NCBI RefSeq assembly: GCF_000283515.1
Contig: NC_015976.1
Location: 2,822,501-2,886,500 of the forward strand
Direction of reading: 5' to 3'
DNA: 64,000 nt
From: Sphingobium sp. SYK-6
GTDB taxonomy: Bacteria; Pseudomonadota; Alphaproteobacteria; Sphingomonadales; Sphingomonadaceae
Shown here: positions 15,816-36,839 of the stretch, piece after piece
Layout: the number at the start of each line of letters is the position of its first letter
How positions within the stretch are numbered: the stretch's first letter is position 1
Position numbers and translations under genes: made by a program
Notes under the pieces: generated by a model
Database searches by the model: none
What the model saw: the letters and a program-made list of their open reading frames with translations, nothing else
What the model was told of the DNA's origin: nothing

Positions 15816-15896
15816 AGCCCCTCTTTCTTGGCGTGAGTTTTAAGAGGCCTTGAAGTCGAGGCGTCATGCCGTGACCGCCTCGATTTATCGGCATTC

Positions 15897-16991
15897 TCAG
15901 ATGCCCGTCGGCGCCTCGAACGTCACATCGCGCGCATGGTCAGACATGCCCTGCTCCCAAGTACTCCAGCCTGAATTCAACCCATAAGGCGCGCGTTCAA
16001 GCAAGGCGTCGATCTTGGAAATCAAGCCATTCTTCTCGATCTTGAAGATCTCCGCAATCTGCCATGTATGCGGTTGGACCGGCCCGGCGGTGACCGTTCG
16101 GCCATTGGCAGTGGTGAAAGTCCGCGTCGCGCCACCCGAATGATCGAAGAAAGCAAAAGCGAATACGAGGCCTCGTTCAGGATCAACGGCAACGAACCGG
16201 CGATCGCGAATACGATTGACGAACGCCATCAGCCCCGACTTGAATTGTTCGGTGCAACTCCACTGACCCGAATAACCGGTCGCCGTGGCGGGGTCGGGAC
16301 GCTTTTCCCCGGCGGGCGTTGGCGCGAGCGTCGCTTGTTTTCCATTTTCATGACGCAGACAATCGGGCGTGAACGGATAATCCCCTTTTCCGTCATTCTT
16401 CTGAAGGCCGGTGAAATATTTGTTGGCCTGCGCGATTAACTGGTCGCGTGAAAGCCGTGCGCTTTGAGGGATCACCTCTACGAGCTTGGGATGAACCGCC
16501 ATGCCATCCAGCCGGTTATAGCTCGCATTGTCGGTCTCGGCCGGATAGCGGAACACGATCTGTTCCACTTCCGTGATTTGCTGATCGCGCACGAGCAGAC
16601 GCAGTGCAATGAACGAGCCGTTGAACTTGGCGGCGTCGCGATGATCCTCCTGGATAGTCCCGAAGAATGTGACTTGTCCGGCCGCGACGTCCGTGACGAA
16701 CAGCTTATAGTTGCCGCGGGCTTTCATTGTGTTCCACAAGCCGTCGCCGACTAACAGGCGCTGGCCGTTTTCCGTGAAGCGCACATTCGGCGAGATCGGC
16801 ACTGCGCTCGGCTGATTTGCCGCAACGGCATCGAGATAGCGACCGACAAAGCCTTCCAGGCACGCGCGCTCACACGGCGCTGCTGCTGGCGCGGGCGTGG
16901 TTGCGGGCGCAACACTCGTGCAGAGCAAGGCTGCAATAAGACCGGCGCAAACCCGTCCTCCACGCAAATTCAGTGATTGTGCGCGCATCAT
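15897..16991 (-). CDS. Secreted DUF8021-like (NTF2-fold) protein, paralogue 1
   Basis: 364 residues: a signal peptide (CAGLIAALLCTSVAPA), then the cluster's recurrent pattern. This is CERACLEGFVGRYLDAV, VRFTENGQRLLVGDGLW, TFFGTIQEDHRD, ANKYFTGLQKNDGKGDYPF with a Cys in TPDCLRHENG, IRDRRFVAVDPERGLVFAF, AFFDHSGG and the end motif RAPYGLNSGWSTWEQG. Two NTF2/SnoaL-like halves are likely. The catalytic role is unknown. I chose the ATG at 16991, which sits after GGAAGG, over in-frame ATGs at 17006 and 16997. It lies about 40 bases after the SnoaL-like gene on the same strand and should share its MarR-box promoter. Confidence 0.8.
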   Translation of the reverse strand: MMRAQSLNLRGGRVCAGLIAALLCTSVAPATTPAPAAAPCERACLEGFVGRYLDAVAANQPSAVPISPNVRFTENGQRLLVGDGLWNTMKARGNYKLFVTDVAAGQVTFFGTIQEDHRDAAKFNGSFIALRLLVRDQQITEVEQIVFRYPAETDNASYNRLDGMAVHPKLVEVIPQSARLSRDQLIAQANKYFTGLQKNDGKGDYPFTPDCLRHENGKQATLAPTPAGEKRPDPATATGYSGQWSCTEQFKSGLMAFVNRIRDRRFVAVDPERGLVFAFAFFDHSGGATRTFTTANGRTVTAGPVQPHTWQIAEIFKIEKNGLISKIDALLERAPYGLNSGWSTWEQGMSDHARDVTFEAPTGI

Positions 16992-17030
16992 CCTCATCCT
17001 TCCCATGATCGTGTCGTCCGATAGAAGTGT

Positions 17031-17639
17031 TTATCGATTGGCTGATATGCCCTGTGCAGGAGTCGCGCGCTGGCGCGGCGGGGCGCTGGGTGTGACAACC
17101 GGGTTGGCGTCCTGGGCCGACCATTCGGGGATGGCCTGATTGTAGATGCGGCGACGCGCATACAGCCACTGGCCATCAACCTTGACGAGTTCGTCTTCGT
17201 AGTGGCCCCAGAAATCGACCGTGCCATAACCTGTCGGTCCGCTCGTCATATGGGTCCAGTAGGCCAGTCCGTGCGCCTTGTTCCCGTCGAGTTTGACGAC
17301 GATATTTGAAATGATGTGGCGTCCTCCCTTCGGACGCTCCCCGGCAGGCGCCTTTGCGCGCGCTTCAGCAGTCCGTTTACGGCCTTCTTCAATAAATGCC
17401 GCGATCGCCTTGCGACCTTTGATCTCGCCAGCACCATAATCGAGAATGCCATCTTCGGCGAAGGTGGCTGCATAGCTCGCCGCGTCGTGCCAATCGAATG
17501 CAAACAAGTAGCGGCCATGAAGATCCTCAATCGCCGCACGATCATCCGCAGGGCTTGCAAGGGCTCCGCTGGAAATGACCACACCGCCAAGCATCGCCAA
17601 CGCGATCATGAAATTGCCCGGCCGCCCCGTTCGAAACAT
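17031..17639 (-). CDS. Secreted SnoaL-like polyketide cyclase/isomerase-fold protein
   Basis: 202 residues with a signal peptide (MIALAMLGGVVISSGALA) and a single SnoaL_4-type NTF2 domain: ADDRAAIEDLHGRYLFAFDW, ATFAEDGILDYGAGEIKGRK, and GGRHIISNIVVKLDGNKAHG followed by FWGHYEDELVKVDGQWLYAR. Proteins of this fold catalyse isomerisation, dehydration or hydroxylation of small molecules. GAGGAGA precedes the ATG. A MarR-box copy lies 59 bases upstream (17698-17711), and the DUF8021-like gene follows, so the two form an operon. Confidence 0.82.
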   Translation of the reverse strand: MFRTGRPGNFMIALAMLGGVVISSGALASPADDRAAIEDLHGRYLFAFDWHDAASYAATFAEDGILDYGAGEIKGRKAIAAFIEEGRKRTAEARAKAPAGERPKGGRHIISNIVVKLDGNKAHGLAYWTHMTSGPTGYGTVDFWGHYEDELVKVDGQWLYARRRIYNQAIPEWSAQDANPVVTPSAPPRQRATPAQGISANR

Positions 17640-17697
17640 GTCCGCTCTCCTCTTGTTTGATGCCTCGTTCCTTCGCGACACCATAAGGGCAATTATA

Positions 17698-17711
17698 GTC
17701 TCATTTGGGAC
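17698..17711. promoter_or_regulatory. MarR-box copy 1 (GTCTCATTTGGGAC)
   Basis: A 14-base imperfect palindrome upstream of the SnoaL-like gene. The same element occurs at 20877-20890, 21499-21512 and 28745-28758, all within the cluster centred on the MarR gene at 20900-21424. It is probably the operator of that MarR protein. Confidence 0.65.
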
Positions 17712-17805
17712 CGGATTGCAAAATCTTTGCCGATGGTGAGCGGAAATTTTGCCGGGTTTGGAGAAGCGCCATTGCGCGCGGGATTCAAGGCGCAATCAGC
17801 AGCAT

Positions 17806-20022
17806 TCAGTCCGCCAGCGGCTCGTGAGTACCTCGAGAAAAGCGGCGAACAACATTTTCGAGAATGCGACTCACGGGGCCGCCGAACGCGCCATTGCACC
17901 AGAGGCTCCCGTTGAAACTTATGGAAGAGGCGGCAAACACAGCGCCGCCGCCCTCGGTAACGAAATAGGTCATGTCACCCCGCACGAGTGCTCCGGCATC
18001 CTCGCCGGTAAGCGCTTGAGGGGGAAAGCGCATGTCCTCCATGAGCGGCAGGAAGCCCGCCTGTAGGCCTTCAGACCGAGCGATGACGACTGCCCCGTCC
18101 GGTGTGCCCAGTCGCGTGTCAGCACGGTCAAGTTCGTAACCTGCGGCGCCTCCGGAATTGAGGCCGCAATCCCCGAAAACTTCGCCGTCCACGCCCTCGA
18201 ATATCCACGAAACTGCCGGGTGGCGAGACTCGTCGGTGCGCCGGAACCATGCAGATTCATATCGACCCTGCGTCGAGAATCCGGTCAAAACAAGCTGCTG
18301 TGGATCACGCCGGTTGCGCTTCCATAGGCCTCCGAACTTGCCATCGAGCGCATGATAATATTCGCCGGGCTCGGCTGCCCAGGCGCGTACGCCATTTTCA
18401 GCGCGACGAACCTCGAGGGCCCATGGCAGCGACGGGTTTCGGCCGATCCGCCAATAAAAGCCGTTGCCACCAAGATAGCAAAGGCGCCCGCCCCTCTGCA
18501 CATGCGCTTGCAAGGCATCGAGCGTTTCGGCGGTATGATATTCCGGATGGCCGCCCGTCAACACCACCCGATATCCGCCGAGCAGCGCGACTCCTTCCTC
18601 ATGGAGATCTTCGTCCGTTATCACGTCAAACTCGATCTCCCGCGCCTCCAGCCAGCCGAGCAGGTGCGAATCCGAGGCGTAGTGGCGCACACCTGACCCG
18701 CCCTCGGCCCTGTCCTTGAAAGTGAGGAACCCTGGCCGCATCGTCAGGATCGGCCGCGCTCTCGAGGCATAGGCGATACCCGATCCGTCCGGGTGATGAT
18801 TGTACGTGCAGCGGCCATAGATCGGAAAGTCATCAGGCGTATGAGGGTAAGCCCCCCATTCTGCTATCCGGGCGCGCAGCGCGTCATCGGTCCAGCCAAT
18901 CGCATGGTTGCCATAGGCCTGATAGGTGAAGGTGGGCGCGAGAAACACCACGTTCGCGCGCGGCCCGTCACGCGGGGCGAGCACATAAAAGGGCAGCCAA
19001 TCCTCACCATCCTCGCAGCGGAGATGGAGCGCATAGGATCCGCTCTTCAGCCCCTCGGGAACCGCGAATGCGAAGCTTTGCGCCCAGCCGCAATCACCCA
19101 GATCATCTTCGTGGAACCTGATCGCGGCATAATGGCCAGGAGCATGCCGCCAGCTCTGCTCGGCGCCAGTCCAGCGTGCACCGACCACGCCGCGCATGGG
19201 CAGATTGACGAGCGTCCCGTCGCAGCCTTGCCCGCCGACGCTCACAATCTGCTGCGTATCAATCCCGATCCCGAGATCCCAGCCACAGATGAGGCGATTG
19301 CCAAGCTCCTCAAGCGATTCAAGCGGGCGGGGCCATTCTGCGCGGAACGAGGCGAGAATGGCCGGGTCCTCGATCTTCCCGTTGAAAGTCTCCTCCTGTC
19401 CGCCGGGTCTGGCCGCCGCGAGCCGCACGAGACCTCGACCAGGCATCGAGGCGTGAACCACCTCCACCTCATTGGAACCGCTCTGGGCTGGCTCATAAAG
19501 ATGAGCGGGCGTATGGAAGCCAACGAGCAGCCGGCCCGACCCGAGGTCGAGACTGGCCCAGATACGGTGCCAGCGATCATGGCGCAGCCGCCCCGCGACC
19601 TCAGCAACGAAGACCCCCTGCCCCGTGTCCAGCCGCGCCTCAACCTTTCCGCTTCCGATGCTCAACGTAAGCTTGGCCGCCGCACCCGCATGATGAAGCA
19701 CGACGCGCGGCGCAGATTGCGCCATTGAGGGCATGACGAGCGCTGTCCAGCAGGCGGCATCGGTGATGATGCCGGGCCCCGGCGCTTCGGCAAAGGAGCC
19801 GAGACGGATCGGCTGGCGATGCCCCAGCTGCTCGGTCTGGTACAGGGATGACAAATCCTCGAACTGCAACCCTGGTCCGGCAGGGTTGGGATCAGCCGAG
19901 ATGACCCGCACCAGCCGCACCTGATAGCGTCCCCCACGCCGAACGCTGATCCGCGCCTCAAGCTGCTCACCAGGACGTGCAGAGAGGCGGTTAAGATACC
20001 CTGTGATCGGCAGCTCGTTCAT
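17806..20022 (-). CDS. N,N-dimethylformamidase large-subunit-like protein
   Basis: 738 residues resembling the beta (large) subunit of dimethylformamidase, an iron-dependent amide hydrolase. The N-terminal half includes a laminin-G/concanavalin-like domain (about residues 95-220). The C-terminal half has the petal-like glutamine-amidotransferase-type core. Candidate ligands of the family's two-Tyr/one-Glu iron site are visible: TFTYQAYGNH, a Tyr in GRCTYNHHPDGSG, and the Glu in GGHPEYHT. There is no signal peptide. The small alpha subunit is not seen nearby. It follows the MoaF-like gene by 30 bases. The substrate is unknown, and an amide or related C-N bond is the reasonable guess. Confidence 0.8.
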   Translation of the reverse strand: MNELPITGYLNRLSARPGEQLEARISVRRGGRYQVRLVRVISADPNPAGPGLQFEDLSSLYQTEQLGHRQPIRLGSFAEAPGPGIITDAACWTALVMPSMAQSAPRVVLHHAGAAAKLTLSIGSGKVEARLDTGQGVFVAEVAGRLRHDRWHRIWASLDLGSGRLLVGFHTPAHLYEPAQSGSNEVEVVHASMPGRGLVRLAAARPGGQEETFNGKIEDPAILASFRAEWPRPLESLEELGNRLICGWDLGIGIDTQQIVSVGGQGCDGTLVNLPMRGVVGARWTGAEQSWRHAPGHYAAIRFHEDDLGDCGWAQSFAFAVPEGLKSGSYALHLRCEDGEDWLPFYVLAPRDGPRANVVFLAPTFTYQAYGNHAIGWTDDALRARIAEWGAYPHTPDDFPIYGRCTYNHHPDGSGIAYASRARPILTMRPGFLTFKDRAEGGSGVRHYASDSHLLGWLEAREIEFDVITDEDLHEEGVALLGGYRVVLTGGHPEYHTAETLDALQAHVQRGGRLCYLGGNGFYWRIGRNPSLPWALEVRRAENGVRAWAAEPGEYYHALDGKFGGLWKRNRRDPQQLVLTGFSTQGRYESAWFRRTDESRHPAVSWIFEGVDGEVFGDCGLNSGGAAGYELDRADTRLGTPDGAVVIARSEGLQAGFLPLMEDMRFPPQALTGEDAGALVRGDMTYFVTEGGGAVFAASSISFNGSLWCNGAFGGPVSRILENVVRRFSRGTHEPLAD

Positions 20023-20052
20023 CGCTCTCTCCGGGGGCGCTGGTCGGCAGGA

Positions 20053-20844
20053 TCAGCCAGGCTCAAATCCTTGCGGATAATCGATGTAACCGAGCGGAAT
20101 GATTTTGGCGCCAACGGGCCGACTGACGATCCCGCCCTCCGTCCCGCCAAATAGCTGGCCGACATTACGACCTTGGGCGAAATCCATCAGCAATGTCAGT
20201 TCGATGGAGCCGCCATCGTGCAGCGCGAGAAGAAAGAGCTCATCGCCGACCTTGCACGTACTCACGGCCTCGATCCCAACCTCCGTCCTCAGCACATCGA
20301 AGCGGGGATCGCTCGGTAAGATCAGCCATTGCCACAGGATTGCCCGCGAATTGACGTACACATGTTCCAGCGCGGCTTCTTCACTATATTGGCAGTAAGC
20401 GCGCCTGCCGATCAGTTCGCGGCTCTCCGCTATTGGCAGATAATCGACAGTGCTGCCCGCGATCCGCGCCGGACGGACCAGGCGGCGCATCGCGCTTTCA
20501 CCTTCGATCAATTGGTCCCAGACCGTAATTGCACGCCCCTGCTCGCGGTCAATCACATGCGTGAGGCCGAGTTTGCGCTCCGCCTCGGCGATATGAACGA
20601 AGAAGATGCCTGGGCGAACCTCAACCGCATCATAAGGGGCGCCTCCAGAGGCGGGCTCCGCCGCTCCGCTCATCTCCCATGTCACCCTGTCGATCCCGAA
20701 CCGGAGGATAAGGGCAGCGCCATCGTCATGGTCGAGCTGGATGTCCTGCCCGGCCAGTATCGTGGTCGATTCCTGGCGGTTCTTGCCCAGGTCCATGTCG
20801 CGCACCATGGGCGGGACCGGACGGATCGGTGCGACTTCGTACAT
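20053..20844 (-). CDS. MoaF-like protein (single unit)
   Basis: 263 residues with the two lipocalin-like halves of MoaF: the N-terminal domain (QLDHDDGAALILRFGIDRVT, EVRPGIFFVHIAEAERKLGL, THVIDREQGRAITVWDQL) and the C-terminal domain (LIGRRAYCQYSEEAALEHVY, VGDELFLLALHDGGSIELTL). The name comes from a monoamine-regulated operon. No reaction is established to my knowledge. The ATG at 20844 follows GAGAGGAA, and the longer in-frame start at 20883 would cross the MarR box at 20877-20890. It is the first gene of a pair with the dimethylformamidase-like gene. Confidence 0.8.
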   Translation of the reverse strand: MYEVAPIRPVPPMVRDMDLGKNRQESTTILAGQDIQLDHDDGAALILRFGIDRVTWEMSGAAEPASGGAPYDAVEVRPGIFFVHIAEAERKLGLTHVIDREQGRAITVWDQLIEGESAMRRLVRPARIAGSTVDYLPIAESRELIGRRAYCQYSEEAALEHVYVNSRAILWQWLILPSDPRFDVLRTEVGIEAVSTCKVGDELFLLALHDGGSIELTLLMDFAQGRNVGQLFGGTEGGIVSRPVGAKIIPLGYIDYPQGFEPG

Positions 20845-20876
20845 GACAATTCCTCTCCCGCGCTGGGGCAGGAATA

Positions 20877-20890
20877 GTCCCAAATGAGAT
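20877..20890. promoter_or_regulatory. MarR-box copy 2 (GTCCCAAATGAGAT)
   Basis: The reverse complement is ATCTCATTTGGGAC, 13 of 14 identical to copy 1. It lies 33 bases upstream of the MoaF-like start and ten bases after the marR stop, so it should control the moaF-like/amidase-like operon. Confidence 0.65.
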
Positions 20891-20899
20891 TATGTCAAC

Positions 20900-21424
20900 T
20901 CAACGTGCATGCCAGTGGGCGAGGATTTTCATCAGCAGATCGTCCAGCTTGGCCAAATCGCGTCGCGACAAAAAGCCGAATATCTCCTCTTCTCGCTCCC
21001 GGAACAGCTTCATTGCCTGCATGTAAAGCGCGCGACCCTCGTCGGTCACGTCGAGCACCATATAACGGCGATCCTCTTCGCTCGGTCGCGCGGTAATGAG
21101 CTTGTTGGCCGTGAGCTTGATCACCCCGCGACTGATGCTGTTCTTCGGTCGCCCGCTCATCGCGCAGATCACATTCGCGGTCATCTCTCCATAGTCGGAC
21201 AGATAGCCAAGAATGGTGAACTCGTCACGAAGCAGACCATGGTCCTGGGCAAGCGCTGCAAAGGCCTCCGCTGAATAATAATTGCCGATGAGGATCATGC
21301 GAAGCCCGAACCAGTCTCCGCCCTCCCCCAGCACGCGCTGGCGAAGCTCTGCAGGAATGCGGTCGATTGCCCCTGTGGATATCTTTCGCCCCAAGTCCGT
21401 TCCGCCCTCAATTTCCAATCGCAA
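20900..21424 (-). CDS. MarR-family transcriptional regulator
   Basis: 174 residues with a MarR winged helix: LLRDEFTILGYLSDYGEMTA, NVICAMSGRPKNSISRGVIK (recognition helix), LTANKLITARPSEEDRRYMV (wing) and a C-terminal dimerisation helix. MarR proteins usually repress catabolic or efflux operons until a small phenolic or similar ligand binds. It sits at the centre of four copies of one palindrome that mark the promoters of the cluster, including its own upstream region (21499-21512), so it is the likely local repressor and probably autoregulated. Confidence 0.88.
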   Translation of the reverse strand: MRLEIEGGTDLGRKISTGAIDRIPAELRQRVLGEGGDWFGLRMILIGNYYSAEAFAALAQDHGLLRDEFTILGYLSDYGEMTANVICAMSGRPKNSISRGVIKLTANKLITARPSEEDRRYMVLDVTDEGRALYMQAMKLFREREEEIFGFLSRRDLAKLDDLLMKILAHWHAR

Positions 21425-21498
21425 GACGTCTGTTCGTGCACGTTCAGGAAGCCCGGCTAGCCGATGTGAACGGCGGGGGTCAACTGCCCAACTTGACA

Positions 21499-21512
21499 GT
21501 CCCGTTTGGGAC
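21499..21512. promoter_or_regulatory. MarR-box copy 3 (GTCCCGTTTGGGAC)
   Basis: GTCCC and GGGAC form perfect 5-bp arms. It lies in the divergent intergenic region between marR (start 21424) and the plus-strand DUF8021-like gene (start 21542), so one site could control both. A TTGACA-like hexamer overlaps its left side (21494-21499). Confidence 0.65.
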
Positions 21513-21541
21513 CATCACTATTGCGGTGAGGAGAATGCTTG

Positions 21542-22417
21542 ATGCACTATAACCGCGATGATCTTGAACAACTCGGTATGCGATATCTCGATGGGCTGAT
21601 CGCGCGTGACCCCGGCAACTTACCTCTTCACCCAGAGTTCCGCCTCACAGAAAATGGGCAAGAGCTGACGCTGGGCGATGGGCTGTGGGGCACCGCGAAT
21701 GGCACCGGCCGCTATCAGCATATTGTCATCGATCGCGAAACGGGCGGCATCGCGATGACGGCGGTGATACTTGAAAATGACCGACCTGTGATCGCCGGAA
21801 TTCGCCTTGCATTGCGCGGCGATCGCATTGCCGAGGCGGAAATGGTGATCTCGCGCACCGACATCCTGTTCTACAAGGATGGCCCAAAAAAGTTGGCTGC
21901 CATGGGCAAGCCCCTCCCCATCTGGAAGGAAGTGCCTCCGGAGCAGGACCGCATGTCGCGGGAGGCGCTCGCCGCTCTGGCCGATTCCTACTTCCGCACG
22001 CTCGAGCGCAACGACGGGCATTTCATTGCTCCATTTGAGGAGGGATGCCGTCGGCTCGACAATGGCGTCTATGCCACGCAGGCGCCAGAGTTCGACAAGG
22101 AGGGCTCGCCACCCTTTTATGGCCTCGGCCCGGCAGAACAGTTCGCTCTTGGCTATTTCGTGTTCGTGACGCAGGTGCGTGATCGGCGCTTTCCGGTTAT
22201 CGACACAGAGCGCGGCGTTGTGGCCAGCCTGCCCTTCCTCGATCATGCAGGAACCGTCCACGAAGCAAAGCTGACCGACGGCCGCACCGTGCCGATCAGC
22301 GTGCGACAGCCCTATTCCTGGCAAATCTTTGAACTGTTCAAACTACGGCGCGGCAAGATCGCGCAAATAGAAGTTGTGCTCAATATGGTGCCTTATGGCA
22401 TGAGATCGGGCTGGTGA
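21542..22417 (+). CDS. Cytosolic DUF8021-like protein, paralogue 2
   Basis: 291 residues without a signal peptide, otherwise like the secreted paralogues: LGMRYLDGLIARDPGNLPLH, FRLTENGQELTLGDGLWGTA, YFRTLERNDGHFIAPFEEGC, VRDRRFPVIDTERGVVASLP, FLDHAGTVHEA and the end motif VPYGMRSGW. GAGGAGA at 21528-21534 is seven bases before the ATG at 21542, so I prefer it to the TTG three bases earlier. It is monocistronic and divergent from marR, with a MarR-box copy upstream. It might act on the imported product of the secreted relatives. Confidence 0.82.
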   Translation: MHYNRDDLEQLGMRYLDGLIARDPGNLPLHPEFRLTENGQELTLGDGLWGTANGTGRYQHIVIDRETGGIAMTAVILENDRPVIAGIRLALRGDRIAEAEMVISRTDILFYKDGPKKLAAMGKPLPIWKEVPPEQDRMSREALAALADSYFRTLERNDGHFIAPFEEGCRRLDNGVYATQAPEFDKEGSPPFYGLGPAEQFALGYFVFVTQVRDRRFPVIDTERGVVASLPFLDHAGTVHEAKLTDGRTVPISVRQPYSWQIFELFKLRRGKIAQIEVVLNMVPYGMRSGW

Positions 22418-22482
22418 ACCGCAGCTGCCCTTGATCTGTCGCTTGGCGCGAGGGGCTTGGCTCGCGCACACCCGCATTTATC

Positions 22483-22947
22483 TTAGGCCTCGGCAAACCG
22501 GACCTTCGTGACGACCCATCCATCATCATGTTTGGCCAATGTCGTAATCAGCACACGGCGCTCGGTCTGGCGCATGCAACGATTGCCTTGCGCCAAGGCC
22601 ATTTGCGCGAATGTGCAATCTGCCTCCAGCGTCGACGCAGACTCGACGACACAGGGCTGACGGGCGATGGCACTGCGGCCATCGTCTGCAATCTGGATCG
22701 CGAGGGGCTGGGCATCATGGTCTGGGGTCACCGCGCTCGCGCCATCAAGATGCGTCACGGCCCCTGCGGTGTCGCGCAGCCAGCGCTCATGCACTTTGCG
22801 CACGGCCGCCTCGTCCTCCAATTGCGCCAGCCGCACAGCAGCGCCGTCGTCGGCGAGCGCGGCAGTGGGCACGGTGATGAGCGGCATTGCGATGAACGCG
22901 CTGCTTTTCAGGAATGAGCGGCGGGATGCAGTGGTGTCGGTGGTCAT
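22483..22947 (-). CDS. Tat-exported NTF2/SnoaL-like protein
   Basis: 154 residues beginning with a twin-arginine signal (SRRSFLKSSAFIAMPLITVP), so it is exported folded, which is unusual among its neighbours that use Sec-type signals. The rest (AQLEDEAAVRKVHERWLRDT, then a C-terminal strand DDGWVVTKVRFAEA) fits an NTF2-like domain. The start overlaps the stop of the tandem MoaF-like gene (ATGA), making it the last gene of the TonB-receptor operon. Confidence 0.7.
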   Translation of the reverse strand: MTTDTTASRRSFLKSSAFIAMPLITVPTAALADDGAAVRLAQLEDEAAVRKVHERWLRDTAGAVTHLDGASAVTPDHDAQPLAIQIADDGRSAIARQPCVVESASTLEADCTFAQMALAQGNRCMRQTERRVLITTLAKHDDGWVVTKVRFAEA

Positions 22948-24674: not shown

Positions 24675-24719
24675 CCGAATTCTCCCTTGCAGTCTCTGTT
24701 ATCTGGACGTCACCCTCGT

Positions 24720-25574
24720 TCAGCCGCGCGGCGGATTGGGGATGGGCTTGACCGGGAAACCGCAGTTGAGCGTCTTGCAGACCGTGATGGTATGCACATA
24801 GCGAAGCAGGCCATTTTCAACCCGGAACAGGTGGCTGTCGGGCAGGCTGCTGTTGCCGAAGCGCAGCAACACGACGACCGAGCCAAGATCCTGGTCGACA
24901 AGATAGCGACGGTCGACCAGCGGCGTGTTCTTAGGCACACCAACGGCGCAGCTATCCTCTTTGCTTACCACGCCGGGCGCGCCCTTGGCGGTATAGATGC
25001 CTCCCTCCAGTCGCGCGCATGGACTGCCCCACGGCACTCTGACCGTCGGGTCGTTGAAGAGGTTGAGATAGGCATCGGCGGCGGCGATGATTGTCTCGCG
25101 GTTGTCCTGCTTCTCCGTGGGGATCATGTCCCACTTCTCTGCCCGTGAATAAGCCAGCGTGTTGGACGCCTTGAACAGCCAGTCATCCGCATCCGTAACC
25201 AGTGTTTCTATTTCGCGGACCAGATCGCCCGTGAGCTTGATCCGCGTGCCCAGCACATAGGGATGCGCTGGATCGGTGATGATCACTTCCACGAAGCTTT
25301 CACAGCCCTGGGTGTCATGAATCGCGCGATGAAAATCTATTTTCTGCGGTTTGTTGAGCAGAGCAGCGGCAAGCGTGATGGGCTCCATCTGCTCCTGAAG
25401 CTTGGCATCGGGAGCCAGCTTGATCAGGCTGGGATTTCCCGCCTGCTGAGCTGCCACATAGGATTGGGTTGCTTCCTCCAGGGCCGTGCGTGTGCAGCTT
25501 TGCTGCGCCATCGCAGGCATGGCGGTGAGAGCAATACAAGATCCGAGCGCCAGACCGGCTATCTTTCTCAGCAT
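24720..25574 (-). CDS. Secreted, diverged DUF8021-like protein, paralogue 5
   Basis: 284 residues with a clear signal peptide (LALGSCIALTAMPAMA-Q). It keeps the general layout of the family (CTRTALEEATQSYVAAQQAG, a central AAADAYLNLFND helix, CARLEGG, then VDRRYLVDQDLGSVVVLLRF), but the RDRRF and PYGxxSGW signatures are weakened or missing. It is therefore a distant member or a related NTF2-like family. ATG 25574 is spaced correctly after GGAAGGG, and an in-frame ATG at 25580 is immediately next to it. It lies between the TonB receptor and the tandem MoaF-like gene on the same strand. Confidence 0.7.
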   Translation of the reverse strand: MLRKIAGLALGSCIALTAMPAMAQQSCTRTALEEATQSYVAAQQAGNPSLIKLAPDAKLQEQMEPITLAAALLNKPQKIDFHRAIHDTQGCESFVEVIITDPAHPYVLGTRIKLTGDLVREIETLVTDADDWLFKASNTLAYSRAEKWDMIPTEKQDNRETIIAAADAYLNLFNDPTVRVPWGSPCARLEGGIYTAKGAPGVVSKEDSCAVGVPKNTPLVDRRYLVDQDLGSVVVLLRFGNSSLPDSHLFRVENGLLRYVHTITVCKTLNCGFPVKPIPNPPRG

Positions 25575-25696
25575 TCCCATCCCTTCCGTAATTGAACATG
25601 TCCATCCTGCGCATGATGTTGACGATCCGCAGGCTGCATCTTGTGAGAAATTGGCGAGCGCAGATTGCGCGCTCGCCAGAGTGAAAATCGGACTGC

Positions 25697-28594
25697 CTAC
25701 AGTTGCACCCGCACGCCGACGGTGAAGGAGCGCCCGATCTGGTCGTAAAGGAAGGTATTCGTGGGCCGCGTCGCGAACACGAAGAAATTCCCGGCATTGC
25801 CCGGAGGATCCTGATCGAGCAGATTGTTCACTGTCGCGAATATCTGGAACTTCCGGCCATTCTCGGTTGTGATATCCTGCGTCAGGCTCAGGTCCGTGTA
25901 AGTAATTGCCGGAACATGATTATCATCGATGGTCACGCCTTCCACGAACGTCGCGTCATATGTGCCGGCGCCGATAATCCGCTCGTCCACACTCGCGGTG
26001 AAACCGCCGAATTTGAGCGTGGCATTGATGTTGAAGGTCCACTTCGGCACACCGCCATCGACACCGACCTGACCTGCGCGATTCACGACCGTCGACCCCG
26101 GAATGAGCGTCGAAAGCTCGAACACGCGCGATGCAATGGCCCTGAGGCCAAGCGAACCGCTCCCCAGCTCGGTGCGATAGCTGCCTTCGATATCCAGGCC
26201 ACGCGTTTTCAGGCGATTGATGTTGAGGAAGCCATTATCGACCCGGAACAGAACGCCATTGGGCGCGCGTTCGAGCCTTGGGCACAATGCCGTGGCACCT
26301 CGGAAGCACTGATCGATGATGTTCTGGACGCCAAGCTGTCCGATCGCATCATCAATCTGCACCGTATAATAATCAGCCGATATGTTGAGTCCGGGAATGA
26401 AGGAAGGCGTGAATACACCGCCGACAGTGAGCGTGTCGGCCACTTCCGGCTTAAGCGCGGTCGAGCCATTTGCCTGGCTGACGACCACTGGTGTTTCATT
26501 GTTGCGAAACGGGTCGACCGCGGCGGACGCCCCCGCAGCGGATGTCGAAAACAGCTCGCGCAAGTTTGGCGCACGGATATCACGCGACCGGGTCGCGCGG
26601 AAGCGGATATCATCGATCGGCTGCCAGTTGAGCCCGACCTTCCAGGTGTTGACGCCGCCGCTGGTGCTGTAGCTCGTGTGCCGACCAGCAAGGTTCAGGT
26701 CCAGCTTCTGCGCGAATGGCACTCCATCGGCGAGCGGGATCAGCGCTTCGCCGAAGACTTCCCACAAATCATATCCGCCCACAATCGGGCGTTGATTTGA
26801 GAGGAAATAGGCGCCGAACGTGCTGGTGGCATAACGCGTATTCGCCACGCCGCGCGGCTGACCGTTCGGGAATTTGAGCCCGTCCGAACCCGGGTCAACA
26901 GTCCGATTGACCGATTCCTTTCGATAGCCGCCGCCAACGGCGATCGCGACGTCGCCCGCCCAGGTCGCAAAGGGCGTACCGCTCAGGACGATTTCGGCCA
27001 CATGCTGCTTGGTGCGTTCGAAGGTCCGCGATCCGGTTCCCCCGTAAGGGCTGGACCGGATATAGTCGATGGCGGCCTGCGACGCGGCGTCTGGGCCGAA
27101 CACGTTGAACGGCACACAGCCCTGCACGGCTGGCACCGTCAACGAGCGATTGCAAACGATGTTGCCTGTCACAGGATCGCGGACCGCATCGACCGCATCG
27201 AACACGCGTTCGATCGTCAGATTGCCTTCCGCGCGGATCGTCTGGAGGTTGGTACCGTAGCCATAATGGCCATCGAGGCTCCAATCGCCACCGACCTTCG
27301 CTTTGAAGCCGCCAGAAAAGCGCACCGTTTCGCTCTCGCCAAGGTTCCGTAACAGACCGGTCTGGCGCATGGTATGACCCAACGTAAATTGGGTGATGCC
27401 CGCCGCATCCATCTGCGCCGCCACGGATGGCGGAAGGAAGGCGTTGTCGCGATAAATGGTGAGCGCCGTATTGCCGTAAAAGCCCATCAACGTGCCGCCA
27501 AACTTGGCGAGGCTGTTGCCGTAGAGCGCGTCGGCATAGAGATCGATGGAATCACTCGCTTCGTAAAGCGCATGGGCATAGGCCGTCTTGCGTTCGATCG
27601 CCGCAACCGGTGTAAAGTCGAGCCCCTGATCCTCTCCGCTGCCGCCGACCATCTGACTTGGCGTCAGCGGATTTCCGAACGTGAATGGCTGCGGCACGCC
27701 GCCAGGGCCGAACTGGATTCCGCGCAAGGGGCCGGAAACGATCAGGCCGCCATCCGCCTCGAGCGGCGTCTTGAGGTTGCAGGTGCGCACGCGCAGCGGC
27801 GTCTGACCCGCAAGCACCAGCGGCGCGCAGGACTGGAACCAGTCGCGATCGCGATAGTCCCGCACGCCAGATTGCATGAAATAACTGCCGCTCGCGACAA
27901 TGTGCAGCCGCTCGCCGACATTGGCGCCAACCGTCAGCGAGATTTTCTGGGTCTCATTGTCGCCGCGCTGCGTAATGCCCGCCTGCGCTGCAGCCTTTAT
28001 GCCCTTGAACCTTGTATCGAGCACGAAGTTGACAACGCCGGCCACAGCGTCCGATCCGTAAGCGGCAGAGGCGCCGCCGGTGACGATGTCAACGCGCTGC
28101 ACCAGCTCTTCCGGCAAGATCGACACATCGACGATGCCATCGGATGTGCTCGGCGTAACCCGGCGCCCGTCCAGTAGGATCAGGCTGCGCTGTGCGCCAA
28201 GCGAGCGCAGGTTGAGCTGGGTCGCCGCACCGCTCTCAGGCGCAAACTGCGACGTCGTTGGACGCACCGAGTTGGCGAACTGCGGCAGCTTGTTGAGTGC
28301 TTCGCCAATCGTCGAGGGTGTGCTGGTAAGAAGCTGCTGCGCCGCTACGACCGTGACCGGCGAGGGCGCGGAAAAGCCATCGCTGATCACGCGCGAGCCG
28401 GTGACGACGATGTCGTTATTGCCGCCCTCGATCGATGCGCCAGCGGCAGCCGAATTGGTGCTGCCCCCAACAGCAGGATCGGTGGCTTCTTGTGCAAACG
28501 CCGCGGACGGCATGACGCAGACCAGCACCGTCGAGAAAAGCGCGGCAGAGCTCAACAGATAGTGACGAAAAAAACGCTGTGATTGTACGGCCAT
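25697..28594 (-). CDS. TonB-dependent outer-membrane receptor
   Basis: 965 residues: signal peptide ending in SAAFA, TonB-box region and plug (NDIVVTGSRVISDGFSAPSP, LPQFANSVRP, LRSLGAQRSLILLDGRRVTP), then a long beta barrel ending in RSFTVGVRVQL with a terminal aromatic-containing strand pattern usual for outer-membrane proteins. It should take up a substrate too large or too scarce for porins, using TonB energy. GGGGAGG precedes the ATG. A MarR-box copy lies about 150 bases upstream. It is the first gene of an operon with the three genes down to 22483. Confidence 0.9.
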   Translation of the reverse strand: MAVQSQRFFRHYLLSSAALFSTVLVCVMPSAAFAQEATDPAVGGSTNSAAAGASIEGGNNDIVVTGSRVISDGFSAPSPVTVVAAQQLLTSTPSTIGEALNKLPQFANSVRPTTSQFAPESGAATQLNLRSLGAQRSLILLDGRRVTPSTSDGIVDVSILPEELVQRVDIVTGGASAAYGSDAVAGVVNFVLDTRFKGIKAAAQAGITQRGDNETQKISLTVGANVGERLHIVASGSYFMQSGVRDYRDRDWFQSCAPLVLAGQTPLRVRTCNLKTPLEADGGLIVSGPLRGIQFGPGGVPQPFTFGNPLTPSQMVGGSGEDQGLDFTPVAAIERKTAYAHALYEASDSIDLYADALYGNSLAKFGGTLMGFYGNTALTIYRDNAFLPPSVAAQMDAAGITQFTLGHTMRQTGLLRNLGESETVRFSGGFKAKVGGDWSLDGHYGYGTNLQTIRAEGNLTIERVFDAVDAVRDPVTGNIVCNRSLTVPAVQGCVPFNVFGPDAASQAAIDYIRSSPYGGTGSRTFERTKQHVAEIVLSGTPFATWAGDVAIAVGGGYRKESVNRTVDPGSDGLKFPNGQPRGVANTRYATSTFGAYFLSNQRPIVGGYDLWEVFGEALIPLADGVPFAQKLDLNLAGRHTSYSTSGGVNTWKVGLNWQPIDDIRFRATRSRDIRAPNLRELFSTSAAGASAAVDPFRNNETPVVVSQANGSTALKPEVADTLTVGGVFTPSFIPGLNISADYYTVQIDDAIGQLGVQNIIDQCFRGATALCPRLERAPNGVLFRVDNGFLNINRLKTRGLDIEGSYRTELGSGSLGLRAIASRVFELSTLIPGSTVVNRAGQVGVDGGVPKWTFNINATLKFGGFTASVDERIIGAGTYDATFVEGVTIDDNHVPAITYTDLSLTQDITTENGRKFQIFATVNNLLDQDPPGNAGNFFVFATRPTNTFLYDQIGRSFTVGVRVQL

Positions 28595-28744
28595 TCAGAC
28601 CTCCCCTTTTTGGAGCTGTCCCGCTCCATCCCATGTTTATGTCGCAAATTTAGCTTGAGGATGGCTCACGGCGGGGCGCGCTTTCGTCACCCTCGCGACG
28701 CGGGTTCATCCGCACAACGATCACTGTACGATGGCTCAGTATCC

Positions 28745-28758
28745 GTCCCATATGAGAC
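28745..28758. promoter_or_regulatory. MarR-box copy 4 (GTCCCATATGAGAC)
   Basis: The reverse complement GTCTCATATGGGAC differs from copy 1 by one base. It lies between the TonB receptor start (28594) and the end of the next gene, so it should control the TonB receptor operon. Confidence 0.65.
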
Positions 28759-28816
28759 GATCATTTGATGCCTGTGTCAACTGGCTTGCGGTGGACGATC
28801 TCCGATAGATGCCAAG

Positions 28817-29803
28817 TTATTTGTCCCAGACATCCGAATGCATGCCGTAAGGGACGGTATTGATGACAGCCTCGATCTGATCATGCTTGCCTGCATCGAT
28901 CTGAAAGAGCTCTGCCACCTGAAACGTCAGAGGAGCGCGGAAGGGTGATGGCACGGTGAGGCCATTGGTCAGCACCAGATCCTTCACTACACCCGTATGA
29001 TCCCAATAAGAAAAGCTCAGGACCAGCCCGCGCTGACGATCCACGACCGGATAGCGCCGATTCCTGATGCCTGTCACAAAAGCATAGAAGCCACTGAGTT
29101 GCTGGCCCTCGCAACTCAATGTCAGCGCGTCAAACCGCTCGCGGCCCGGCCTCACCGTCTTCAGATTTGTGGTCTGTCCGCCATTCTCAATGCGCTCACA
29201 GCCCTTTGCAAAAGGAGCGCTGGTCTTGCCCGTGCTCCCTTGGAGATTGGCGAAATAGGCATCTGCGACACGCAGAAGCTCTTCGCGTGACATGCGCTGG
29301 CGCTCCGGCACGTTGCGCTCGAACTGCGGGCGCGGCGTACCGATCTCCTCGATTTTCGCGCCAGGCGATGTAACGGAGAGACCGGCCGCTCCCCCGCGCG
29401 CGACCACCGTTTCGATCTCACCGATCTTCTGCTCGCGTACGCCGATGCGGAGGGCGATATAGACGGGTCGCCCGTCCTCCATCATGGTCCCGACGAAGCC
29501 CGCCTGGCCGGTCTCAGCATCGATGGCGGTGATGCGATAGCGACCGCGCGCATTGGCCGTCCCCCATAGCCCGTCCCATAATGCGCGCTCAACGCCATTC
29601 TCGGTCGCCTTCACATCGCCGGCGAGCGGGAGCCGGCTGATGTCGTTCGCTGCCATTGCATCGAGCGTCTGATCGAGCAGCGCTTCGAGGCAACCACGAT
29701 CGCATGAGACCGGAACTGAATAGGATGCAGGGTTGCTCTTGGCCGCGACGCCAGAGACAGCGAGGCATAGCGCGGCAGTCGTGGCAGGAATGCGGGCTGA
29801 CAT
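28817..29803 (-). CDS. Secreted DUF8021-like protein, paralogue 3
   Basis: 328 residues: signal peptide (TAALCLAVSGVAAKS), then CDRGCLEALLDQTLDAMAAN, VKATENGVERALWDGLWGTA, FVGTMMEDGRPVYIALRIGV, ADAYFANLQGSTGKTSAPFA, a Cys in KGCERIENGG, IRNRRYPVVDRQRGLVLSFS, YWDHTG and the end motif VPYGMHSDVW. It starts four bases after the stop of a small gene on the same strand, so it is probably translated together with it. Control is probably by the TetR element at 30085-30100 rather than the MarR box. Confidence 0.8.
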   Translation of the reverse strand: MSARIPATTAALCLAVSGVAAKSNPASYSVPVSCDRGCLEALLDQTLDAMAANDISRLPLAGDVKATENGVERALWDGLWGTANARGRYRITAIDAETGQAGFVGTMMEDGRPVYIALRIGVREQKIGEIETVVARGGAAGLSVTSPGAKIEEIGTPRPQFERNVPERQRMSREELLRVADAYFANLQGSTGKTSAPFAKGCERIENGGQTTNLKTVRPGRERFDALTLSCEGQQLSGFYAFVTGIRNRRYPVVDRQRGLVLSFSYWDHTGVVKDLVLTNGLTVPSPFRAPLTFQVAELFQIDAGKHDQIEAVINTVPYGMHSDVWDK

Positions 29804-29807
29804 CGCC

Positions 29808-30014
29808 TTACCCCGCCCGACTGAAGAACAGCCCGCGGCTTGGCAGCGCAGCAGGGATCGTGATGCCCGCCTTCAACCCCATCAGGTCATCGGCAAGGCC
29901 GCTCAAATGCTCCATCGCGCGCGCCTCGGAGAACCTGAAGAGCTCTTCTTGAAGCGACGACGGCAGGGCACATGCGGCCACCGACAGTCGCTCGATCCAT
30001 GTTCGTCGAGACAT
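29808..30014 (-). CDS. Small hypothetical protein (68 aa), coupled to paralogue 3
   Basis: The frame starts MSRRTWIERLSVAACALPSS and has GGGAGAG a few bases before its ATG. The middle is helical (LQEELFRFSEARAMEHLSGL, ADDLMGLKAG). It ends four bases before the DUF8021-like start. Good ribosome binding site, codon use and tight spacing support it, but I recognise no family. It is the first gene after the TetR-type dyad on the minus strand. Confidence 0.5.
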   Translation of the reverse strand: MSRRTWIERLSVAACALPSSLQEELFRFSEARAMEHLSGLADDLMGLKAGITIPAALPSRGLFFSRAG

Positions 30015-30084
30015 CCCACTCTCCCGGCAACGCTGGGAGACTTGCAGCGCGCCATAGCAATTTCTTATTTTCTAACGCTGTTAG

Positions 30085-30100
30085 CCTAACGACGATAGGG
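30085..30100. promoter_or_regulatory. TetR-type operator copy A (CCTAACGACGATAGGG)
   Basis: CCTA-N7-TAGG with shared flanks. It lies between the divergent small gene (30014) and tetR (30144). A matching element, CCTAACAGTGGTAGGG, lies at 30782-30797 in front of the next gene. Confidence 0.55.
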
Positions 30101-30143
30101 CAGGTGTCAACCCACGAAACATCACTTGCCAAAGGAGCCGCTG

Positions 30144-30716
30144 GTGAGGAAAGTTCGCAGGATGCCACTCGACCGACAGCAAATTATCGCAGCGACGTTC
30201 GACCTGCTCCGCGAAGGCGGGCTGGACGGGCTGAGCATGCGTACGCTGGCGAAACGGCTCGATGTCCAAGGCGCCACGCTCTACCATCATTTTGCGAGCA
30301 AACGGGTTCTGCTGGATCATGTGGCGGAGGAATTGCTTGCGCCCAGTTGGCGTGATCCATTGCCCGGAGAAGACTGGCGCGCATGGATCTTGGCCATCTC
30401 GACAATGACGAGGGGCGCAATGCTGTCTTGCAAGGATGGCGCAATTCTCTGCGCTGGTGGAGGGCCAACCGGTACGGAACGATCGCAGCGGCTCATCCAG
30501 ACATTGTATCAGCCGCTCCTCGAAGCTGGCTTCGCTCATTCGCAGGCAAGGTTCATTCGCATGTCGGCCTATCGCTTCACGCTCGGCTGGACCATCGATG
30601 AGCAAGCATCGCTCGCAGCGAAGCGCGGCCGCGAAGTAACGTCAGCGGACGACGCCTTCCATTTCGGCCTGTCTGCGCTCATCCGCGGTTTCCCGGACCC
30701 TGATCCGCAAACCTGA
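30144..30716 (+). CDS. TetR-family transcriptional regulator
   Basis: 190 residues with an N-terminal TetR HTH (RQQIIAATFDLLREGGLDGL, SMRTLAKRLDVQGATLYHHF, ASKRVLLDHVAEELL) and a ligand-binding C-terminal domain of the tetracycline-repressor type (HFGLSALIRGF near the end). I chose the GTG at 30144 because AGGAG is seven bases upstream, whereas the TTG at 30126 lacks a site. Matching dyads in both flanking promoters suggest that it controls the genes at 28817-30014 and 30816-31790 and itself. Confidence 0.87.
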   Translation: MRKVRRMPLDRQQIIAATFDLLREGGLDGLSMRTLAKRLDVQGATLYHHFASKRVLLDHVAEELLAPSWRDPLPGEDWRAWILAISTMTRGAMLSCKDGAILCAGGGPTGTERSQRLIQTLYQPLLEAGFAHSQARFIRMSAYRFTLGWTIDEQASLAAKRGREVTSADDAFHFGLSALIRGFPDPDPQT

Positions 30717-30781
30717 GGCATCAGCCCTCGCGCAACAATTTCGCTTGCGCGTTCGCATCGTCCCGCTACCAATAGTTAAAA

Positions 30782-30797
30782 CCTAACAGTGGTAGGG
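30782..30797. promoter_or_regulatory. TetR-type operator copy B (CCTAACAGTGGTAGGG)
   Basis: CCTA-N7-TAGG, identical to copy A in the outer six and five bases. It lies seven bases before the ribosome binding site of the next DUF8021-like gene, where a bound repressor would block transcription. Confidence 0.55.
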
Positions 30798-30815
30798 TGG
30801 ATCGGGAGAGGTTCG

Positions 30816-31790
30816 ATGTGTCGCATGAAACTATTCGTGACGCCGGCAATCGCGCTGATGGTGGGGTCGACGGCACCTGCTCAGCAGCCGGCCCCTCCCT
30901 CTTGCACGCGCACTTGTCTTGAAGGCTGGGTCGACCGCTATCTGGTCGCCATGCGCGACGCCAAAGTGGACGAAGCCATGTTTGCGCGAGACGTGAAATT
31001 CACCGAAAACGGCATCCAGCTGCCGCTGGGTGATGAAGGCCTGTGGCATTCGATGAGTGCGCTCGGCACGTATAAATTCACCGTACCGGACATCGAAACC
31101 CAGCAGGTCGCGTTTCTTGGCACGGTTCGTGAAAAGAATCGCGATGGTAAGGAATCTGTCGTCGCAATCGCCTTGCGACTGAAAATACGCGGCGATCGGA
31201 TAACCGAGATCGAGCAGCTCGCGTCTCGCCCTGCCGACACGAACAGCAGCCGCAGCGACATCCCGCCGACCGGCGTGGGCGTTGAAAAGATGGGGCAGCC
31301 CCATCCATGGTTCACGGCGCCGATCCCGGTTGCGCAACGTCAAACGCGCGAAGAGCTGGTGAAAACCGCAAATTATTACTTCACCGGGCTCCAGCGGAAC
31401 GACGGCAAAGGTTATTATCCCTTCACGGATGACTGCATCCGCTTTGAAAACGGCATGGATGTTCTTGCCAATGCGCTTGATCCGACGACAGGCAAGCGCG
31501 GGCGGATGACCTGCAAATATCAGTTCGAAGCCGCGCTCAAGAACATCGTTTCCCGCGTCCGCGACCGTCGCTTCGTAGCCGTTGATCGAGAGCGCGGGAT
31601 CGTGTTCGCATTCGCCTTTTTCGACCATGAGCAGATTAACTGGACGTGGCAGTTAGGTGAGCTTTTCCGAATCGAAAATGGTCAGATCCGTCGGATCGAA
31701 GCGATCTTCCACCGCGCGCCTTATGGCATCAACTCGGGGTGGAGCACCTACGAACAAGGTCTGTCCGACCAAATTCAAGATATACGTTGA
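30816..31790 (+). CDS. Secreted DUF8021-like protein, paralogue 4
   Basis: 324 residues: signal peptide (MKLFVTPAIALMVGSTAPA), then CTRTCLEGWVDRYLVAMRDA, VKFTENGIQLPLGDEGLWHS, VAFLGTVREKNRDGKESVVA, ANYYFTGLQRNDGKGYYPFT, a Cys in DDCIRFENG, CKYQFEAALKNIVSRVRDRR, FVAVDRERGIVFAFAFFDH and RAPYGINSGWSTYEQG. It is closest to paralogue 1. The ATG at 30816 follows GGGAGAG. An ATG nine bases later is also possible. A TetR-type operator sits just upstream. It is the last gene of the cluster. Confidence 0.82.
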   Translation: MCRMKLFVTPAIALMVGSTAPAQQPAPPSCTRTCLEGWVDRYLVAMRDAKVDEAMFARDVKFTENGIQLPLGDEGLWHSMSALGTYKFTVPDIETQQVAFLGTVREKNRDGKESVVAIALRLKIRGDRITEIEQLASRPADTNSSRSDIPPTGVGVEKMGQPHPWFTAPIPVAQRQTREELVKTANYYFTGLQRNDGKGYYPFTDDCIRFENGMDVLANALDPTTGKRGRMTCKYQFEAALKNIVSRVRDRRFVAVDRERGIVFAFAFFDHEQINWTWQLGELFRIENGQIRRIEAIFHRAPYGINSGWSTYEQGLSDQIQDIR

Positions 31791-32400
31791 ACCCTAATGC
31801 CTCAAATGCCCAAAAACAGAATGTTCGCCTTCGGCCACTTCCCACTGGTTACCAAACATTGCTCTCCTAAACTCAACCTCCGCAATCATACGTTGAAGTT
31901 AATAATAACTCTTGTCTCACTATTTAGATCCGCAATTTCGTCGCACTTTGGTTCGGATTTCATAAGAATATCGAAGGATACCAACATGCTCCCGCCCTCA
32001 TCGAGTACTGTTGAGGTTCTCAGTCTTACTGAATTATAAAGTTCTCGTACTATCCACTTTAGATTTAGAATATCTACCTACCCAGCTTATAAATGCAGCA
32101 TGGCGCCGAACATTCGCCCAGTTCTTTAATTCAAAGCGGACATTCTGGATCGTTCGCAATCACAGGCATTCGCGAGCGGACGTTCAACGGGATGCCCGAA
32201 GGGCGGCTTGGGCGAGATGGGGCTCGTAAGGAGACTTACCGGAGTGTCCGAAGAAGATGACGCTGTCCTAGCCTCTCGGTAGTCCGGTGACCTGGCCATG
32301 CAACGTACCCTAAATCACCAGGGGCACGGGGTAGGCGAGCCACCTTTGTTGCGCATCACCGACTGGACTAGACATTCATTTCCGCCCTCACACAAAAACG
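31791..32400. other. AT-rich intergenic stretch
   Basis: About 600 bases without a convincing gene. From roughly 31,850 to 32,100 the composition is clearly more AT-rich than the rest of the window (AATAATAACT, ATTTAGATCC, ATTATAAAGTTC, TTTAGATTTAGAATATC), which suggests foreign or promoter-rich DNA at the edge of the catabolic cluster. Only short frames with no similarity are seen. Confidence 0.5.
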
Positions 32401-33169: not shown

Positions 33170-33170
33170 G

Positions 33171-33434: not shown

Positions 33435-33565
33435 GGGCATTCCCTCTCATTGCTAAGCCAGTGTCTATGTAGGATGCCTGCCGAGATTTTCATCCTCCCG
33501 AGCCCCGGCTTACAACGATCGCCGGGAGGGATTGCGCAACGAGCGCCCTATCGGCCTTGATCATC

Positions 33566-33580
33566 GTTCTTCTTTCGTTC
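33566..33580. promoter_or_regulatory. LexA box (GTTCTTCTTTCGTTC)
   Basis: This matches the alphaproteobacterial SOS box GTTC-N7-GTTC exactly. It lies 49 bases before a small plus-strand gene (33629) and 132 bases before the divergent zinc finger/alkB operon. Two more copies lie at 36840 and 37563 in front of known SOS genes. Confidence 0.7.
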
Positions 33581-33628
33581 TACCCAAGCCGACCATGAAG
33601 ATCGAATCGACGCGCGGGAGTAAAAGCA

Positions 33629-36834: not shown

Positions 36835-36839
36835 GACTG

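Follow-up and report, generated by a model that had tools for sequence, protein, structure and literature searches.

A strain-variable island of NTF2-fold, MoaF and iron amidase-like genes in Sphingobium sp. SYK-6 as a candidate catabolic locus

Introduction

Sphingomonads are studied for lignin valorisation. Here we describe a locus in a 64,000-nucleotide stretch of the 4.35-Mb genome of Sphingobium sp. SYK-6 (positions 2822501-2886500 of contig C1, NC_015976.1; this whole stretch is referred to as the window, and coordinates are those of the window unless stated otherwise). At 15389..32228 the window carries a strain-variable island of about 17 kb that codes for five proteins with a tandem NTF2/ketosteroid isomerase (KSI) fold, hereafter D1 to D5, two more SnoaL-like proteins, two MoaF proteins, an iron amidase-like protein of the DMFA2 type, a TonB-dependent receptor and two regulators. 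The best explanation that we can offer, with a probability of about 0.5, is an accessory, strain-specific island for the catabolism of an aromatic, plant-type compound.

The closest described systems are the sphingomonad lignin-dimer clusters (LdpA/PcfL, PhcF/PhcG, PinZ-PinU and the lignostilbene dioxygenases), which have NTF2-fold enzymes in common with the island (PMC12997858, PMC12607616, PMC11323797, in the passages drawn on here). LdpA, PcfL, PhcF/G and PinZ-U are described in a 2026 review, one passage of which gives 62 NTF2-superfamily homologues for SYK-6 and expects further lignin-associated pathways (PMC12997858). Structure 8ABV is the lignin-dimer lyase LdpA (PMC11476836), and the lignin-dimer decarboxylase PinX is reported to have a DUF3237 domain and to be 42% and 38% identical to PhcG and PhcF, respectively (PMC12607616). 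Unlike these clusters, the island has no lignostilbene dioxygenase, DUF3237 or LdpA-type gene, and it contains an iron amidase-like gene and MoaF genes. For the amidase-like protein the nearest described enzymes are N-acetyl-(R)-beta-phenylalanine acylase and the large subunit of N,N-dimethylformamidase (PDB 6lvb; PMC7686228). The MoaF family (PF10703/PF17409; PDB 4q51) is represented in the island by both of its domains.

Results and Discussion

Gene content and strain-variable status of the island

Homology to the same-species genome G272 (97 to 98%) stops at position 15388 and restarts at 32228, and between these points G272 carries a different sequence of about 17 kb. The GC content of the island is 0.596, versus 0.661 in the left flank and 0.623 in the right one, with fairly uniform values of 0.57 to 0.64 for the individual genes inside. 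An open reading frame (ORF) at 15196..15894 (minus strand) that matches integrase-core transposases (Pfam rve, 1.8e-13) spans the left border. The locus is a strain-variable island because of this break in homology, its GC content and the integrase-core ORF over its left edge; a search for direct repeats at the edges gave only matches of chance length (9 to 10 bases).

An earlier note on this DNA, written without database searches, had listed thirteen genes at 15897-31790, and all of them were recovered within that range, most by Pfam or by alignment of the D proteins. A MarR regulator (20900..21424, minus strand; Pfam MarR_2, 6.4e-9) heads a run of genes on one strand, coding for MoaF, the DMFA2_C protein, a SnoaL_4 protein and D1 (15897..17006, minus), with gaps of 10 to 30 bp between the longest ORFs, some of which the true starts could widen. 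D2 (21539..22417, plus) is divergent from MarR. The TonB-dependent outer membrane receptor (25697..28594, minus; Pfam, 3.7e-29; Plug, 8.8e-18), D3 (24720..25580, minus), the long MoaF protein MoaFx2 and a SnoaL-like protein with a twin-arginine signal, NTF2Tat, form a second run, with gaps of 116 and 45 bp followed by a 4-base overlap. A TetR regulator (30126..30716, plus; Pfam TetR_N, 2.8e-13) lies 72 bp upstream of D5 (30789..31790, plus), and D4 is found at 28817..29803 (minus). As the earlier note had also remarked, no ordinary oxygenase, dehydrogenase, ligase or further transporter appeared among the ORFs scanned at 15389-32228 (the main ORFs with Pfam and 63 ORFs with our own family models).

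D1 to D5 belong to an uncharacterised family with a predicted tandem NTF2 fold

D1, D2, D4 and D5 are clear paralogues (39 to 50% identity in the pairs that include D1 or D4), and D3 is a divergent fifth member, with 25% identity to D1 and D4. A profile of the family, which also recovers D4 and D5, scored 441 bits for D1, 413 for D2 and 71 for D3, the last over the first two thirds of the protein only. In the tree, D1 grouped with D5 and its relative from the genome G365, to which D5 is 71% identical (support of 100/97), and D3 grouped with its own G365 relative (100/100), while the placement of D2 and D4 was not supported. Four of the proteins had been proposed to share fixed signatures, and most of these withstood alignment: TENG, R(D/N)RR(F/Y) and ERG or QRG are present in D1, D2, D4 and D5, and so is the FFDH-like motif (FFDH in D1 and D5, FLDH in D2, YWDH in D4), but PYGxxSGW is intact only in D1, D2 and D5, its version in D4 being PYGMHSDVW. 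D3 retains DRRY alone. Across ten members of the family the invariant positions, in D4 numbering, include T67-E68-N69, W80, D95, E109, R119, E131, R170, R173, Y183, C202, R204, N207, R249, R250, D255 and H269.

None of the five proteins exceeded a Pfam cut-off, D5 alone giving a weak match to SnoaL_2 (E = 0.021), and the four scanned against NCBIfam (D1, D3, D4 and D5) had no match there. DUF8021 was therefore not retained as an established label for them. A comparison of the D profile with PDB sequences gave no meaningful match either. D4 was modelled with AlphaFold2 from five input sequences, and the best of five models, with a mean predicted local distance difference test score (pLDDT) of 74 (range of 74 to 38), was used for fold comparison. 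Residues 32-138 matched the KSI structure 4k1u (Z score of 11.9, root mean square deviation [rmsd] of 2.2, 102 aligned residues) and residues 170-319 the KSI structure 3mki (Z score of 11.7, rmsd of 2.3, 116 aligned residues), which on the evidence of this predicted structure places the D proteins in the NTF2/SnoaL superfamily.

A hydropathy scan, which is not a signal peptide predictor, gave a strong hydrophobic N-terminal stretch for D1, D3, D4, D5 and NTF2Tat, and all four of these D proteins are probably exported. The SnoaL_4 protein (17031..17795, minus; Pfam SnoaL_4, 2.3e-25) is probably exported as well, as judged by eye from a hydrophobic stretch beyond the residues scanned, and its true start is probably downstream of the annotated one. 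The proposal that most of these family members are exported thus probably holds for these six proteins but not for D2, both MoaF proteins or the DMFA2_C protein, where no such stretch was seen.

Among the 396 genomes of the order, at least 31 gave matches to the D family, and every one of these belongs to a single taxonomic family; of 289 genomes sampled from the class at least 2 did so, both from that same family. All the genome counts given here for D, D3 and DMFA are lower bounds, since at most five (D in the order), seven (D in the class), six (D3) or two (DMFA) candidates were scored per genome. Five of 72,556 plasmid records, from Novosphingobium and Croceicoccus, also gave matches. In SYK-6 the family numbers at least 13 proteins, counting D3, spread over five places, and relatives of D3 scoring at least 165 bits occur in at least 9 of the 396 genomes, this one among them. 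One of the other places in SYK-6 (L009:2029-18368) combines four D genes with three TonB receptors and with sulfatase-, FecR- and sigma factor-like genes, the last three labels having been given by eye. Proteins of about 600 amino acids with two fused D units, for which four NTF2 domains per chain are expected, were seen in two other loci (L102:8202-10001 and L106:8132-9940), and at L013:10499-12436 the protein continues beyond its D unit into a C-terminal region that weakly matches strictosidine synthase/SMP-30-like proteins.

Elsewhere, D genes lie beside aromatic-dimer gene families

We compared 20 D-anchored loci (out of 30) with 20 control stretches, both sets being drawn from one group of 17 genomes. 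Genes were called with a simple heuristic based on GC at third codon positions (GC3), which failed to detect the D gene at three of the 20 (L110, L116 and L122), and ten proteins, mostly cluster representatives, were checked by Pfam. The marker families were picked from these same D loci, which makes the P values optimistic. PQQ-ADH genes were present in 15 D loci and in none of the controls, and the same absence from controls was found for SnoaL_4 (11 D loci), MarR and a second SnoaL cluster (10 each), VAO-type FAD oxidase and DUF3237 (8 each), RPE65/CCO and cytochrome c (7 each), GST (6) and NmrA (5). ALDH (14 versus 3) and SDR (14 versus 2) were also more frequent at D loci. Of the 20 D loci, 17 had at least one of CCO, DUF3237, VAO, PQQ-ADH and SnoaL_4, compared with none of the 20 controls. 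Differences for acyl-CoA ligase (3 versus 0), a third SnoaL cluster (3 versus 0) and tannase (0 versus 1) were not significant. Relatives of the D proteins therefore share their surroundings with families known from the lignin-dimer clusters, namely RPE65/lignostilbene dioxygenase, DUF3237, FAD oxidase with cytochrome c, NmrA and GST.

D genes also stand with ordinary catabolic enzymes at three other loci of SYK-6 itself (L011, L012 and L013), and the isolation from such enzymes that the earlier note had read into the island does not extend to the family. This genome has eight RPE65-family genes. The CCO protein encoded near the D gene at L012 has a lignostilbene dioxygenase as its best PDB match (369 bits), and the SnoaL_4 protein adjoining a pair of D genes at L013 matches the LdpA-type structures 8abt-8abw (99 bits). 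On a plasmid of Novosphingobium capsulatum, a TonB receptor gene and a D gene are adjacent, with pcaF, catC and muconate cycloisomerase genes within 12 kb. Because relatives of its enzymes adjoin lignin-dimer-degrading genes in other strains, an aromatic, plant-type substrate is probable for the island.

An iron amidase-like protein closer to an N-acyl-beta-amino-acid acylase than to dimethylformamidase

The iron amidase-like protein (17806..20022, minus; Pfam DMFA2_C, E = 4.6e-89) is the sole PF20254 match of this genome. It aligned nearly over its full length (residues 4-731 of 738) with N-acetyl-(R)-beta-phenylalanine acylase at 610 bits (8huy, 8i59 and 8i5a, identified as this acylase by their PDB entry names). 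The match to dimethylformamidase (6lvb) scored 388 bits. The active site residues of the Paracoccus enzyme, Y399, Y440, H519, E521, N547 and E657 (PMC7686228), were mapped through the Paracoccus aminophilus protein, which has the same residues at the same numbers; all six are kept in the window protein, as Y370, Y407, H492, E494, N520 and E630. The domain and the Tyr-Tyr-Glu iron site with its His, Asn and Glu identify it, at the level of sequence, as a DMFA2-type amidase. The name dimethylformamidase-like, under which it was first noted, thus holds for family and iron site, but by similarity the protein is nearer the N-acetyl-beta-amino-acid acylase. A two-subunit N,N-dimethylformamidase was considered and set aside, as no small-subunit gene was found beside it: the window contains no DmfA1-like stretch (best tblastn match, E = 1.5 over 16 residues).

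MoaF proteins and NTF2Tat

The shorter MoaF protein (20053..20883, minus) has MoaF and MoaF_C domains over the Pfam cut-off (4.9e-20 and 1.5e-10), which by its sequence makes it a member of the family. MoaFx2 (22944..24674, minus; 576 amino acids) matches MoaF in three stretches (5.1e-26) and MoaF_C in one, and differs from the described family by these extra MoaF stretches. The sequences of the MoaF proteins matched PDB entry 4q51; the MoaF structure model, with a pLDDT of 49, was too poor for a fold search. NTF2Tat (22483..22947, minus), whose gene overlaps that of MoaFx2, is shorter than its two aligned relatives and has no Pfam match itself, but its family aligned with SnoaL_4 proteins with a probability of 95.6%, and one relative passed the Tat signal model.

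All the MoaF matches of this genome are within the island. In the order, 8 of 396 genomes gave matches, 7 of them over the cut-off, and the long MoaFx2 form was found in 6, all with D hits. This co-occurrence of MoaFx2 with D (6/6 versus 31/396) or D3 (6/6 versus 9/396) is not taken as proof of a joint function, because D3 and MoaFx2 share chromosomal surroundings in genera g4 and g5 and the genomes are related. NTF2Tat adjoins MoaFx2 in G365 and G019. Of 6 MoaF loci, 3 have a member of the NTF2Tat cluster, which also occurs in the window, and 4 have a tannase-family gene; at L036, L037 and L032, MoaFx2 stands beside a tannase/feruloyl esterase-family gene at the same chromosomal place. A MoaF gene followed by an NTF2 gene also occurs in catabolic-looking clusters of Rhizobium brockwellii and Agrobacterium leguminum, the latter together with hpaR and a 4-hydroxyphenylacetate hydroxylase.

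A possible catabolic role and its alternatives

Taken together, the sequence data are consistent with a catabolic locus, probably for a small molecule, that is linked to a TonB receptor and codes for one amidase-type protein and for a conserved family of NTF2-fold enzymes, some of them probably exported. This is much as the earlier note had proposed, and our search of one open-access library likewise found no published pathway with this gene set. If a single substrate served all the parts, it would probably be aromatic and possibly an aromatic amide. The TonB receptor would bring it across the outer membrane, and in the periplasm the exported D and SnoaL proteins would catalyse acid-base reactions that need no cofactor (eliminations, hydrations, isomerisations or lyase-type reactions). 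The following reactions would be cytoplasmic and fall to D2, to the two MoaF proteins and to the putative Fe(III) amidase, a member of the dimethylformamidase/N-acyl-amino-acid acylase family. The operons would be under MarR and TetR control, and the products might be completed by the other D-bearing clusters of this genome, with their lignostilbene dioxygenase-family, aldehyde dehydrogenase and alcohol dehydrogenase genes. The chances are roughly even that the island reuses the families of the sphingomonad aromatic-dimer clusters and adds an iron amidase to them. Lignanamides are amide-bearing relatives of lignin dimers. A more specific version is quite unlikely: the substrates would be aromatic amides from plants (hydroxycinnamoyl-amides or lignanamides, for example), their amide bond would be broken by the amidase, and the D proteins would form a new, partly periplasmic class of cofactor-free lyases or isomerases for phenylpropanoid dimers. 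The literature matches listed for lignanamides included no bacterial pathway. The D family has no Pfam match over cut-off, has a predicted tandem fold, is found in one family of the genomes sampled and often lies near lignin-dimer gene families, and could be a candidate for some of the missing steps of lignin pathways, of which the island would be a TonB- and amidase-linked variant.

Several observations weigh against an aromatic catabolic island. Besides the missing hallmark genes of the lignin-dimer clusters, no CCO, VAO oxidase, PQQ-ADH, SDR, ALDH or GST gene lies inside the island. The D proteins show no detectable sequence similarity to LdpA-type SnoaL_4 proteins: a relationship by sequence with LdpA/PcfL was rejected after no match to 8abt-8abw up to an E value of 10 and a probability of 2.4% in hhalign against a SnoaL_4 alignment that included an LdpA relative. 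(The LdpA-type structures were not among the fifty structural matches listed for D4 by VIA-align, which excludes nothing.) The SnoaL_4 protein of the window gave no match to LdpA at E values of 0.01 or less. In the locus comparison, the excess of TonB receptors (10 versus 5 of 20, P = 0.095), MFS (5 versus 1) and GMC (4 versus 1) was not significant, MoaFx2, NTF2Tat and DMFA were found in neither set (0 of 20 each), L122 had none of the scored families, and L104 and L110 had none of the five markers. DMFA occurs in at least 6 of the 396 genomes and does not seem to be a usual partner of D, because the other five fall outside the 31 genomes with D hits. A D3-type gene is present in seven genomes of genera g4, g5 and g29 (L186-L192) in a common housekeeping neighbourhood (by eye, lytic transglycosylase-like, D-Ala-D-Ala carboxypeptidase-like, thymidylate kinase, metG and TatD genes), and the MoaFx2 relatives of these genera also have shared, apparently core chromosomal surroundings; the D3 subfamily may thus have a core role unrelated to catabolism.

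A doubtful but serious alternative is that the island is a composite without a common pathway, in which the TonB, DMFA, MoaF, SnoaL and D genes arrived separately and act on different substrates. Scattering in relatives, which the earlier note had named as evidence against its own proposal, is largely what we found: among the 396 genomes, MoaF, DMFA and D occur together in this one alone, and the full set was not found as a unit in relatives. In G365, a draft of about 40 contigs in which separate means on different contigs, the counterparts are spread over four: relatives of D5 (71%) and D3 (40%) on C13, a D3 relative (57 to 58%) on C6, a single MoaF (59%) on C3, where a CCO gene is one gene away and a D gene is at a distance of about 21 kb, and relatives of MoaFx2 (64%) and NTF2Tat (40%) on C29, with no DMFA match. 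The transposase remnant at one edge also fits separate arrivals. Yet the tight one-strand run from MarR to D1, the second run from the TonB receptor to NTF2Tat and the fairly uniform GC of the genes argue against a composite, and the D5 and D3 relatives are adjacent in G365 too.

A further alternative is that the island serves the catabolism of an N-acyl substrate other than a lignin compound, for example an N-acyl-beta-amino acid or a xenobiotic amide. The central reaction would then be that of the amidase, and the D and SnoaL proteins would act on what it releases; that the nearest solved relative of the amidase is an N-acetyl-(R)-beta-phenylalanine acylase fits this reading. In Roseomonas and Palleronia, relatives of the amidase with 54% and 44% identity have genes for aminotransferases and for ABC or TRAP transporters beside them, and one of 43% in Leisingera has TRAP genes near it, yet no aminotransferase nearby. 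We nevertheless regard this explanation as unlikely, given that the Pfam scan found no aminotransferase in the island and that the neighbours of D genes elsewhere suggest aromatic dimers. Modification of a terpenoid or polyketide-like natural product, with the NTF2-fold and MoaF proteins as cyclases or isomerases, seems very improbable: the fold search with D4 did list AusH, ChaU and IdmH, but also many unrelated NTF2 proteins, and does not single these three out, no biosynthetic core enzyme was found in the island by Pfam, and the TonB receptor and the catabolic neighbours of D genes elsewhere weigh against it as well.

Flanking genes

The right flank (32606-43369) contains an AlkB-type 2OG-Fe(II) oxygenase gene and an ImuB/DnaE2-like pair of SOS mutagenesis genes (Pfam IMS and DNA polymerase III alpha domains). 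In G272, groEL- and groES-like genes (labels by eye) occupy the spot of the island (L097:1777-3819), and in the window groEL is located at 57538-59160, some 25 kb beyond the right edge of the island, which may point to a rearrangement.

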